DNA of 64,000 bases, taken from contig NZ_JAMGBC010000001.1 of assembly GCF_023516495.1 (NCBI RefSeq), positions 868,001 to 932,000 of the forward strand, read 5' to 3'. How positions within the stretch are numbered: position 1 is the first letter of the stretch; every line of letters starts with the position of its first letter. This document shows, piece after piece, positions 4,659 through 64,000 of this stretch. A program made the position numbers and the translations under genes. The stretch comes from Sphingomonas anseongensis. GTDB taxonomy: Bacteria > Pseudomonadota > Alphaproteobacteria > Sphingomonadales > Sphingomonadaceae. Below the pieces are notes generated by a model, which saw only the letters and a program-made list of their open reading frames with translations, was not told where the DNA came from and did no database searches.

Positions 4659-5849
4659 TCAAGCTCCCTTGCGGTGATAGCGGTGGGGGACGAACGGCAT
4701 CGGCGCGATCTTTGAGTCGAACAGCTTGCCGCGCTGCTCCAATTTCAGCTCCGTGCCCGGTTCGGCGAGCGCGGTCGCGACATAGCCCATCGCGATCGGA
4801 CGCTGCAGCGAGGGCGAGAAGCCGCCGCTGGTGACCCGGCCGATCTCGCTGCCTTCCCCGTCAAGAATTAGCGCTCCCTCGCGCACCGGCTGCCGCCCCT
4901 CGACGTCGAGACCGACCCGCTTCTGCGGTGCGCCCTGCTCGAGCTCGGCGAGAATCCGCGGAGCGCCGGGAAAGCCGCCTTCGGCGCGGCGGCGCTTCTG
5001 GATTGCAAAGGTAAGGCCCGCCATCACCGGCGTCGTGTCGCGGTCGAGATCGTGGCCGTACAGCGGAAGCCCGGCCTCGAGCCGAAGCGAATCACGCGCT
5101 CCAAGGCCGATCGGCTTCACCCGTTCGTCGGCGACCAGGGCCTCTGCGAGTTGCTCCACGGCGACTGCCGGAATGGAAATCTCGAACCCGTCCTCACCGG
5201 TGTAGCCCGAACGGCTGATCCACAAGGGGTGTCCGAAAGCGTGGAAGGCATTGCCCTCCATGAAGGTGAGGTCGGACACTCCGGGAATGATCGCCTCGAG
5301 GACGTCGACCGCCTTGGGGCCTTGCAGCGCCACAAGCGCCTGGCCGGTCATATGATCGACGAACAGGTCCTTCGGCAGCGACTGGCGCATGACTTCAATG
5401 TCGCCGTGCTTGGTCGCTCCGTTGACCACCAGGTAGAAATCGCTGCCGCGGCGGGTTGCCATCAAATCGTCGATGATCCCGCCGCCGCCGTCGAGGAGCA
5501 GCGAGTAGCGGAGCTTGCGGTCGGCAAGGCCGCGGATATCGCCGGGGAGAATGGTTTCGAGGGCCGATTCCGCATCGGGACCGTGGATGAGCAGCTGTCC
5601 CATGTGGCTGACGTCGAACAGGCCTGCATTCTCGCGAGTCCACAGATGCTCCGCCATGATCCCTTCGTACTGGACGGGCATCATGTAGCCGGCGAACTCG
5701 ACCATTCGCCCGCCCTTCGAGCGGTGCCAAGAATCGAGAGGAAGGGTCTGCGGCTCCGGCTGCGGCTCGCCTTCGGCGGCGCCGGTATACGGCGTTCCCC
5801 GAGCCTGCTCATGCTGGTCGGTGGGGCCGTTATGGACTTCTCGGCTCAT
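4659..5849 (-). CDS. gcvT: Aminomethyltransferase, glycine cleavage T protein
   Basis: Transfers the methylene group from GcvH to tetrahydrofolate, releasing ammonia. [16 protein letters not shown] and FDVSHMGQ are the family N-terminal motifs, and FEISIP and [20 protein letters not shown] are also present. ATG 5849 has GGAGG eight bases upstream. An open frame continues upstream to 6041 but runs through the glycine riboswitch, so it is not coding. The first 40 residues (charged, before [11 protein letters not shown]) are longer than usual for GcvT. First gene of the riboswitch-controlled operon. Confidence 0.96.
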
Positions 5850-61861: not shown

Positions 61862-62329
61862 TCAAATCCTCTGCTTGAGCCCTTCCAGCGCGACGACGTC
61901 GCCATACTCGACGACCGGTGCGCCGATCAGCCGCATCCAGTGGCCTGCCGTTCCGTGACCCGGCCGCATTTCCGCGTCGATGACGAAGGCCTTCTTCTGC
62001 TTGATGGCCTCAGAGCGGATACGCTCCATCAACGGACGGCTCCGGGGGCTGTAATAGGTCAGCGCCTCGGCGCGAGTGATCGGCGTTCCGCGCGGCACTC
62101 CGAAAATGTCATAGACTTCGTCGGACCAGCGGAGCGCTCCGGTGCAAAAGTCGTAGCTCCACTTGCCAGCGCCGGGGCCTTGGGCCAGCCGTTGCTTTGC
62201 GGCGGCCCGGATATCCTCGACCGAACAGTCGAGCAGCAGGCCGAGCTCGAACCGGTGGCCGCGAACGTCCAGCGGCCAGATGTGAACCGGGACGGGGTTG
62301 CTCGGCGCTATTGGCCCGTTCTGGGACAA
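61862..62329 (-). CDS. PAS-domain protein
   Basis: 155 residues from TTG 62329 with GGGGGG upstream. A PAS_3-type domain: GKWSYDFCTGALRWSDEVYDIFGVPRGTPITRAEALTYYSPRSRPLMERI... DAEMRPGHGTAGHWMRLIGAPV. No kinase or GGDEF part, so it is a sensor or stand-alone PAS protein. It converges on the HTH gene and is divergent from the small gene at 62445. Confidence 0.75.
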   Translation of the reverse strand: MSQNGPIAPSNPVPVHIWPLDVRGHRFELGLLLDCSVEDIRAAAKQRLAQGPGAGKWSYDFCTGALRWSDEVYDIFGVPRGTPITRAEALTYYSPRSRPLMERIRSEAIKQKKAFVIDAEMRPGHGTAGHWMRLIGAPVVEYGDVVALEGLKQRI

Positions 62330-62444: not shown

Positions 62445-62666
62445 ATGGAAATTCAATCGCTGGTGATCGACTCCCGCCAGATCGAGCTGTCGCTCGGTTC
62501 GAACGACGGCGGCCGGGAATATGTTTTCGCCCGGCTTCCGTTCAACGGCGACGACTATCGCGACAAGTCTCTCGACGACGTCCGGATCGCGTCGCTCAAC
62601 CGGGTTCGCGAAGCGATTGACGGGGCCATCGGCACATTGAACGGGAAAGCGCCCTCCACGCGCTGA
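62445..62666 (+). CDS. Small conserved hypothetical protein
   Basis: 73 residues: MEIQSLVIDSRQIELSLGSNDGGREYVFARLPFNGDDYRDKSLDDVRIASLNRVREAI. Reads like a real protein (mixed acidic/basic, no low-complexity run). GGAG lies 10 bases before ATG 62445. No function known. Divergent from the PAS gene; the first NarL-like site lies downstream of it. Confidence 0.6.
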   Translation: MEIQSLVIDSRQIELSLGSNDGGREYVFARLPFNGDDYRDKSLDDVRIASLNRVREAIDGAIGTLNGKAPSTR

Positions 62667-62714
62667 ACCTAGCCCGCCGGTGCGCCGGATTAGGTCCGAT
62701 CCGGCCTCAGCACT

Positions 62715-62728
62715 TACCCCTATGGGTA
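62715..62728. promoter_or_regulatory. Inverted-repeat operator, NarL-like heptamer pair
   Basis: TACCCCTATGGGTA: half-sites TACCC and GGGTA facing each other. Each seven-base arm fits the NarL consensus TACYYMT (TACCCCT and, on the other strand, TACCCAT). Lies 72 bases before the kinase ATG and matches the second site at 62778. Confidence 0.6.
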
Positions 62729-62777
62729 GAAATCCTGATCGATGTTAAAGAGATACCCCGAGGAAGCGCTCGGTCCT

Positions 62778-62791
62778 TACCCTTATGGGGA
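62778..62791. promoter_or_regulatory. Second inverted-repeat operator, overlapping the kinase start region
   Basis: TACCCTTATGGGGA: same layout as the first site but with one arm less perfect. The centres are 63 bases apart, about six turns of the helix, so both would face the same side. It overlaps the kinase ribosome binding site (GGGGAG), suggesting autoregulation by a LuxR/NarL-type regulator. Confidence 0.5.
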
Positions 62792-62799
62792 GTTGCGAC

Positions 62800-63966
62800 A
62801 TGAAGGCCGATCAGAGCGCGAACGACGGCAGGAATAGCAAAGGGGCCGGGCAAGGCCCCGAGCTTGAGTGGATCACTTCAAAACCGCCGGGCTCCGCAGC
62901 GGGCAGTGTGCCGGGCCCGATCGAAGTCTGGCAACACCTTCTGGACGGCCTCACCGAGCAGATCGCGCTTCTCGATGAGGATTGTAACATCCTTCTCGTC
63001 AATCGTTCCTGGGCCCGCACCGCGGAGCTTTACGGCCACTTCTCCCTCATTCCCGGAACCAGCTATCTCGAATTTTGCCGGGCGATTGCTGCCAAAGGAC
63101 TGCAGGTGGCGCGCGAAGTGGTCGCCGGGCTCGAGGAAATTGCCGACGGCAAGCGCACCTCCTTCGAAATCATCTATCAGGCCAGCGATCCCGAAAGGGC
63201 CGGCAACGACCACCGGCTCTGCGTCAACAGGTTCGAGGCGGATGGGCGCATCTTCATTTCCATTACTCGCTACGACATCACCCGCCTGGTGGAGCTTCGC
63301 AGGCTGCGCGAGCAATTCAGCAATTCCGTCATCAAGGGCCAGGATGAGGAGAGGCGGCGGCTGGGCCGCGAAATCCATGACTCGACGATGCAGCTGCTGG
63401 CCAGCCTCGGCATGATGATCGGCCAGCTGAGGCGGACCTGCCGAACCGGCGAATGCCAGCCTGTCCTCGACGACATGGAGCAACTGCTCGGCGAAGCGCA
63501 GCAGGAGATCAGGTCGATTTCCTACCTCGCCCATCCGCCGCTGCTGGACAAAATGAGCCTTACGGAGGCCTTGCGCTCCCTGGTCGAAGGGGTCAGCCGG
63601 CGGACCGGCCTCGATGTCAGCTATGAGTGCGTCGGTGAGCCCCGGTTCCGCTCGCCGGCCGCCGAAGGCGCTATTTACCGGGTGGTCCAGGAAGCGCTGT
63701 CCAACGTCCATCGCCATTCGAAGGCTCGGCACGCCACTGTCCGCCTGAGCGAAGGCAAGGGCATGGCGCACGTCGTCATCGCCGACGACGGGGTCGGGAT
63801 GCCGCACGACGTCCATGCGGGCGTTGGCCTGGCGGGAATGCGCTCGCGGCTTTCGGAGCTCGACGGGCGCCTGTTCATTCGCCACCGCTCGCCAGGCACG
63901 GCGGCCATCGCCAGCCTTCCGCTGGAAAGGAGATCTGTGCCGCCGCCCCGGCGACAGCGGACGTAA
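62800..63966 (+). CDS. Sensor histidine kinase, NarX/UhpB type, with PAS domain
   Basis: 388 residues. A PAS domain at residues 40-165 (VWQHLLDGLTEQIALLDEDCNILLVNRSWAR), then HisKA_3 with phospho-acceptor H193 (GQDEERRRLGREIHDSTMQLLASLG) and HATPase_c (VVQEALSNVHRHSKA, IADDGVGMPHDVHAGVGLAGMRSRL). No membrane helix: a cytosolic sensor. ATG 62800 with GGGGAG seven bases upstream is preferred to ATG 62785. The next gene probably encodes its LuxR-type response regulator. Confidence 0.9.
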   Translation: MKADQSANDGRNSKGAGQGPELEWITSKPPGSAAGSVPGPIEVWQHLLDGLTEQIALLDEDCNILLVNRSWARTAELYGHFSLIPGTSYLEFCRAIAAKGLQVAREVVAGLEEIADGKRTSFEIIYQASDPERAGNDHRLCVNRFEADGRIFISITRYDITRLVELRRLREQFSNSVIKGQDEERRRLGREIHDSTMQLLASLGMMIGQLRRTCRTGECQPVLDDMEQLLGEAQQEIRSISYLAHPPLLDKMSLTEALRSLVEGVSRRTGLDVSYECVGEPRFRSPAAEGAIYRVVQEALSNVHRHSKARHATVRLSEGKGMAHVVIADDGVGMPHDVHAGVGLAGMRSRLSELDGRLFIRHRSPGTAAIASLPLERRSVPPPRRQRT

Positions 63967-63985: not shown

Positions 63986-64000
63986 ATGTCGGACGACCGG
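63986..64000 (+). CDS. Start of the next gene, probably the response regulator (cut by right edge)
   Basis: ATG TCG GAC GAC CGG at 63986 with GAGG upstream, 19 bases after the kinase stop. Only five codons are visible. HisKA_3 kinases nearly always pair with a LuxR-type response regulator, so this is the likely identity, but it is inference. Confidence 0.35.

Follow-up and report, generated by a model that had tools for sequence, protein, structure and literature searches.

The window (the whole 64-kb stretch of DNA that was analysed) ends inside an operon led by a sensor kinase gene. This gene, on the forward strand at 62800-63966, encodes a soluble histidine kinase and is followed, 19 bp past its stop codon and in the same direction, by a forward-strand gene which starts at 63986, reaches the last base of the window at 64000 and continues beyond it to position 4918 of locus L007. 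A preliminary description of this DNA had placed a LuxR-type regulator at 63986; the gene found there encodes an MBL-fold persulfide (sulfur) dioxygenase, and the sequence past 64000, when checked for a LuxR-type regulator, was found to hold genes of a sulfur-detoxification operon instead. A next gene other than a response regulator was an outcome which that description had itself named as refuting its reading. The dioxygenase matches NF040641 (Blh) with 396 bits over the dioxygenase half only, the match starting at model position 138, and has solved relatives 9g8t, 4efz and 4ysk (E down to 1e-115), the last of which is a bacterial persulfide dioxygenase. Downstream of it lie a Sulf_transp (YeeE) gene, a DUF6691 gene and then a TauE/SafE gene, so that a persulfide dioxygenase and transporters of the TauE and YeeE types occur together, as expected of bigR-type content. 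No DNA-binding protein was found by Pfam or NCBIfam to be encoded beside the operon; a 73-aa open reading frame just upstream of the kinase (62445-62666, forward strand) has no match in either collection and is not DNA-binding by either. Divergent from this reading frame is a gene for a small, stand-alone PAS_3 protein that weakly resembles FixL (61862-62329, reverse strand), which could be a sensory accessory.

Two palindromes precede the kinase gene. Their cores, TACCCCTATGGGTA at 62715-62728 and TACCCTTATGGGGA at 62778-62791, have a start-to-start spacing of 63 bp, and the second covers the kinase ribosome-binding site GGGGAG (62787-62792), the start codon ATG being at 62800. The preliminary description had reported twin palindromes 63 bp apart, with the second over this ribosome-binding site, and we confirmed both their coordinates and their non-randomness: with up to two mismatches, the pattern occurs in the 64-kb window solely at these two places (4 strand-hits, with 0.31 expected and none of 100 shuffles doing as well). 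It had also named random scatter of the motif over the genome as an observation that would speak against its reading; a scan of the whole 2.2-Mb genome found no zero-mismatch copies beyond these two. Four sites with one mismatch (C1 276351, 336111, 1623739 and 1894802) are without sulfur or regulator genes, and a regulon defined by the palindrome was rejected on these grounds. Both palindromes are real and go beyond chance. They form the cores of a longer 24-nt direct repeat, the similarity of which extends 5' of the palindrome: the upstream copy CTCAGCACTTACCCCTATGGGTAG (62706-62729, forward strand) contains the first core, and the downstream copy CTCGGTCCTTACCCTTATGGGGAG (62769-62792, forward strand) contains the second and overlaps the ribosome-binding site. 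The two copies are identical at 19 of 24 positions, and none of 2000 shuffled versions of the intergenic region reaches this similarity. Between them lies a further TACCCC half-site (62754-62759, forward strand) with a putative role, which may be due to chance; the same hexamer is found at position 1455 of locus L012. No sigma-70 promoter was found near the palindromes, and no match to the exact palindromes was found in the literature.

The kinase has 388 residues, with a HisKA_3 domain at 184-247 and a HATPase_c domain at 290-376 (Pfam), and its phospho-acceptor is His193. Residues H193, N302, D329, G331, G333, G341 and G343 are invariant in the alignment, and the H-box together with the N and G boxes of HATPase_c, as well as matches to DesK and VraS structures, identify it as a member of the HisKA_3 family (HPK7, DesK/NarX-type). 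Its PAS domain is unseen by Pfam; the AlphaFold model shows a PAS fold at approximately residues 40-160 (beta-beta-alpha3-beta3 at 54-159, pLDDT mostly 76-92), a disordered N-terminus and no membrane segment among the predicted elements, and the top Foldseek matches are LOV/PAS kinases, with DesK also present. Thus, of the earlier assignment to a NarX-type kinase, the HisKA_3/HATPase fold is upheld, but the protein is soluble and PAS-linked, and its NCBIfam scores fall far below the cut-offs (NarX, 65.6 bits against 578; NarQ, 64.3 against 553), which rules out membership of the NarX and NarQ families. The comparison with NarX/NarL of E. coli likewise holds in part. The HisKA_3/HATPase core is shared, and both arms of site 1 match the NarL heptamer TACYYMT; however, neither arm of site 2 does so, the arms are spaced 7-0-7 rather than 7-2-7 as in NarL sites, the membrane sensor is lacking and there are no nitrate genes beside the window kinase.

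Orthologues of the kinase are rare, being found in nine of 396 genomes of the order (E <= 1e-38), and a scan of genome contigs for close homologues returned only distant kinases. A PAS cysteine (YLEFC, in an FC motif) is kept in four to five same-genus orthologues and, in the form VC, in Microvirga. This conserved cysteine and the genomic context suggest sulfide or persulfide as the signal of the kinase. The genus contains several small HisKA_3 kinases (e.g. L033 of G014 and L091 of G046), some of which have no regulator gene next to them; this points to many-to-one signalling, with one NarL-type regulator as the common target. A fasciclin-domain gene lies near the kinase orthologue on a Microvirga ossetica plasmid (L106 5156-7742) and in G046 (L085 3625-4002).

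The bigR operon of Agrobacterium and Xylella comprises BigR, Blh and TauE (PMC5823870). The operon described here resembles it in uniting a Blh-type dioxygenase, Sulf_transp/DUF6691 proteins and a TauE exporter, and differs in that its dioxygenase is without the N-terminal sulfur-transferase part of Blh and in that a HisKA_3 kinase gene stands in place of the BigR/ArsR gene. ArsR-family persulfide-sensor repressors (SqrR/BigR) guard the same dioxygenase operon elsewhere in the genus: in at least 14 of 29 other dioxygenase loci that were examined, the position occupied here by the kinase, immediately upstream, is taken by an ArsR-type gene. No ArsR-family BigR repressor gene is present in the kinase-led operon, and the only ArsR-like match in the genome lies near metF (40% over 79 aa). 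The operon is a BigR-type sulfur-detoxification operon in which a soluble PAS/HisKA_3 (DesK/NarX-type) kinase has taken the place of the ArsR repressor. A precedent is NreBC of Bacillus licheniformis, a HisKA_3/LuxR pair which activates sqr-pdo on H2S (PMC9918477); a soluble PAS-HisKA_3 kinase, a LuxR-type regulator and a link to a persulfide dioxygenase gene are common to both systems. In B. licheniformis, however, the genes are adjacent and the CsoR-type YrkD represses the cluster, whereas here the candidate regulator is distant and the genome has no CsoR-family gene. For NreC of S. carnosus, binding to a palindrome rich in GC has been reported.

Four proteins with a LuxR/GerE domain are encoded in the genome: a regulator of the FixJ type next to a FixL-type kinase, one of the NarL type (L081 6515-7162) that faces a small HisKA_3 kinase, a response regulator beside another HisKA_3 kinase (L082), and a short LuxR-type protein. 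The second of these, a NarL-family response regulator at contig positions 1,457,517-1,458,161, lies approximately 526 kb from the window kinase. In three sphingomonads (G327, G394 and G268) the orthologues of regulator and kinase lie directly side by side in convergent orientation, and in Microvirga ossetica a homologue of the kinase (38%) is followed in tandem by a regulator that shares 49% identity with the distant one. We also found that this regulator occurs in eight of the nine kinase-bearing genomes, as against 12 of all 396 (hypergeometric P = 3e-13, a value which ignores shared descent). The distant NarL-type regulator is thus the best candidate, and the probable partner, of the window kinase; as its gene already faces another kinase, the partnership would be non-exclusive.

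The promoters of this regulator carry a site of their own. At ten loci (L092-L097, L101 and L103-L105), a conserved GGG-N4-YCCYGAT is found 80-175 bp before the regulator start, and in most of these promoters a second, inverted copy (ATCGGG-N4-CCC) lies further upstream. In the present genome the site is GGGTTTACCCYGATTGG, at C1:1458299-1458314, and GGGTTTACCCCGATTG occurs within two mismatches only once, at this same promoter. Such a site before the NarL-type regulator of sphingomonads looks like autoregulation. The 3' part of GGGTTTACCCYGATTGG and the sequence TTACCCYTATGGG at the kinase promoter have 11 of 13 bases in common (TTACCC(C/T)GATTGG in the regulator promoters against TTACCC(C/T)TATGGG in the kinase promoter), a likeness that was noticed after the fact. 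We scanned the window with a matrix built from the ten regulator-promoter sites, using 6387 overlapping 134-bp segments. The kinase promoter ranked 17th, a rank equalled by five of 1000 column-scrambled matrices (P ~ 0.005); a matrix of the 13-column core ranked it first, but this core was chosen after the match had been seen. Sites resembling the motif were also seen upstream of the kinase orthologues of G042 and G051, and upstream of a related kinase in G046. However, the similarity is moderate evidence only, as the kinase promoter scores 8-10 where true members score 20-29 and as the symmetry is reversed, being GGG-N4-CCC in the regulator sites and CCC-N4-GGG at the kinase promoter.

We tentatively favour, at just short of even confidence, the reading that the two repeats are a predicted paired operator of the kinase-led sulfur-detoxification operon, most likely bound by the distant NarL-family regulator. 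The preliminary description had proposed NarL-like sites governing a HisKA_3 kinase; a likely NarL-family partner with a similar site at its own promoter agrees with this proposal, although the partner is not adjacent to the kinase and the symmetry of the sites differs. Against the favoured reading, the palindromes are missing in front of the kinase orthologues of four relatives from the same genus. In such a system the signal for the soluble PAS/HisKA_3 kinase would be a cytoplasmic one, in all probability sulfide or persulfide, as suggested by the content of the operon and the NreBC precedent (PMC9918477). The signal would alter kinase activity and hence the phosphorylation of the distant NarL-type regulator, which, once phosphorylated, would bind both repeats, so that the kinase would control its own operon. 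As 63 bp corresponds to six helical turns of 10.5 bp, two dimers would lie on one face of the DNA. The upstream dimer may act on RNA polymerase, and thereby activate transcription, while the downstream dimer may bring about repression, damping or looping, as is suggested by the position of site 2 over the ribosome-binding site.

The main rival is that a different transcription factor uses the repeats as its operator at this promoter only, for example a repressor from another family or either of the two remaining LuxR-type response regulators. We regard this as less probable than binding by the distant NarL-type regulator, but as a serious candidate, given that the symmetry of the repeats differs from that of the regulator's promoter sites. 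The perfect CCC-N4-GGG symmetry is unlike that regulator's own sites; the motif is confined to a single genomic locus, as would be expected of a dedicated local regulator; and two further LuxR-type response regulators do exist, one of the FixJ type and the other encoded next to a second HisKA_3 kinase. Nor were two such repeats found near the NarL-type regulator's own promoter. However, the operon has no adjacent gene for a DNA-binding protein, none of the four genome-wide one-mismatch sites is located at the gene of another LuxR-type regulator, and the matrix similarity favours the NarL-type regulator.

It is improbable that the repeats are not an operator at all, but either a minor local duplication or an element of the leader RNA with hairpins hiding the ribosome-binding site, the palindromy being due to chance. 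Identity does run 5' past the palindrome, as in a direct repeat, a small hairpin is possible at each core, and the pair is conserved in no other genome searched: it was found in none of 71 same-genus or 385 class genomes (a class-wide search in which the reversed control pattern also matches once). However, both copies retain the inner CCC/GGG symmetry, and the similarity at a shift of 63 stops sharply at the repeat boundaries, so that the repeats are not what is left of a long tandem duplication after decay. The RNA folds no better than shuffled sequence (z -0.56 to 0.35), and an RNA leader structure was rejected for this reason. An operator pair of CsoR/CstR-type (DUF156) is very improbable and largely refuted, since a search for PF02583 proteins with E up to 10 returned none in this genome (99.95% complete), whereas the positive controls E. 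coli, B. subtilis and others gave matches. The layout itself fits in part: TAC-CCCTATGG-GTA resembles type 2 CsoR-family sites, in which TAC and GTA arms flank two short G/C tracts (TAC-N9-GTA; PMC3902906), and the operon content suits the targets of CstR, a repressor of sulfur-detoxification genes (PMC10318464), but site 1 has N8 rather than N9 and site 2 is without the GTA arm.

What is known of control by sulfide or persulfide in Proteobacteria concerns mainly ArsR-type (BigR, SqrR) and FisR-type regulators. If the kinase indeed acts in the repressor's place, one type of sensor would have given way to another within the same operon, a situation like that of NreBC in Bacillus. A broader reading, which we consider doubtful, is that a sphingomonad lineage has exchanged the one-component BigR/SqrR repressor for a cytoplasmic PAS/HisKA_3 kinase, its conserved PAS cysteine sensing sulfide or persulfide, which signals through a distant NarL-type regulator to an in-phase operator pair. 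The kinase, the distant regulator and one promoter form a testable set, and the site conserved before the regulators provides a candidate binding site for this NarL-type family in sphingomonads. Among dioxygenase operons that are headed by ArsR-type genes, inverted repeats of TTAGAA-type (e.g. ATTAGAACATTCTAAATTAG) are common to loci L053-L063 and similar loci, approximately 30-60 bp upstream of the ArsR-type gene, and are likely the operator of BigR/SqrR-like repressors.
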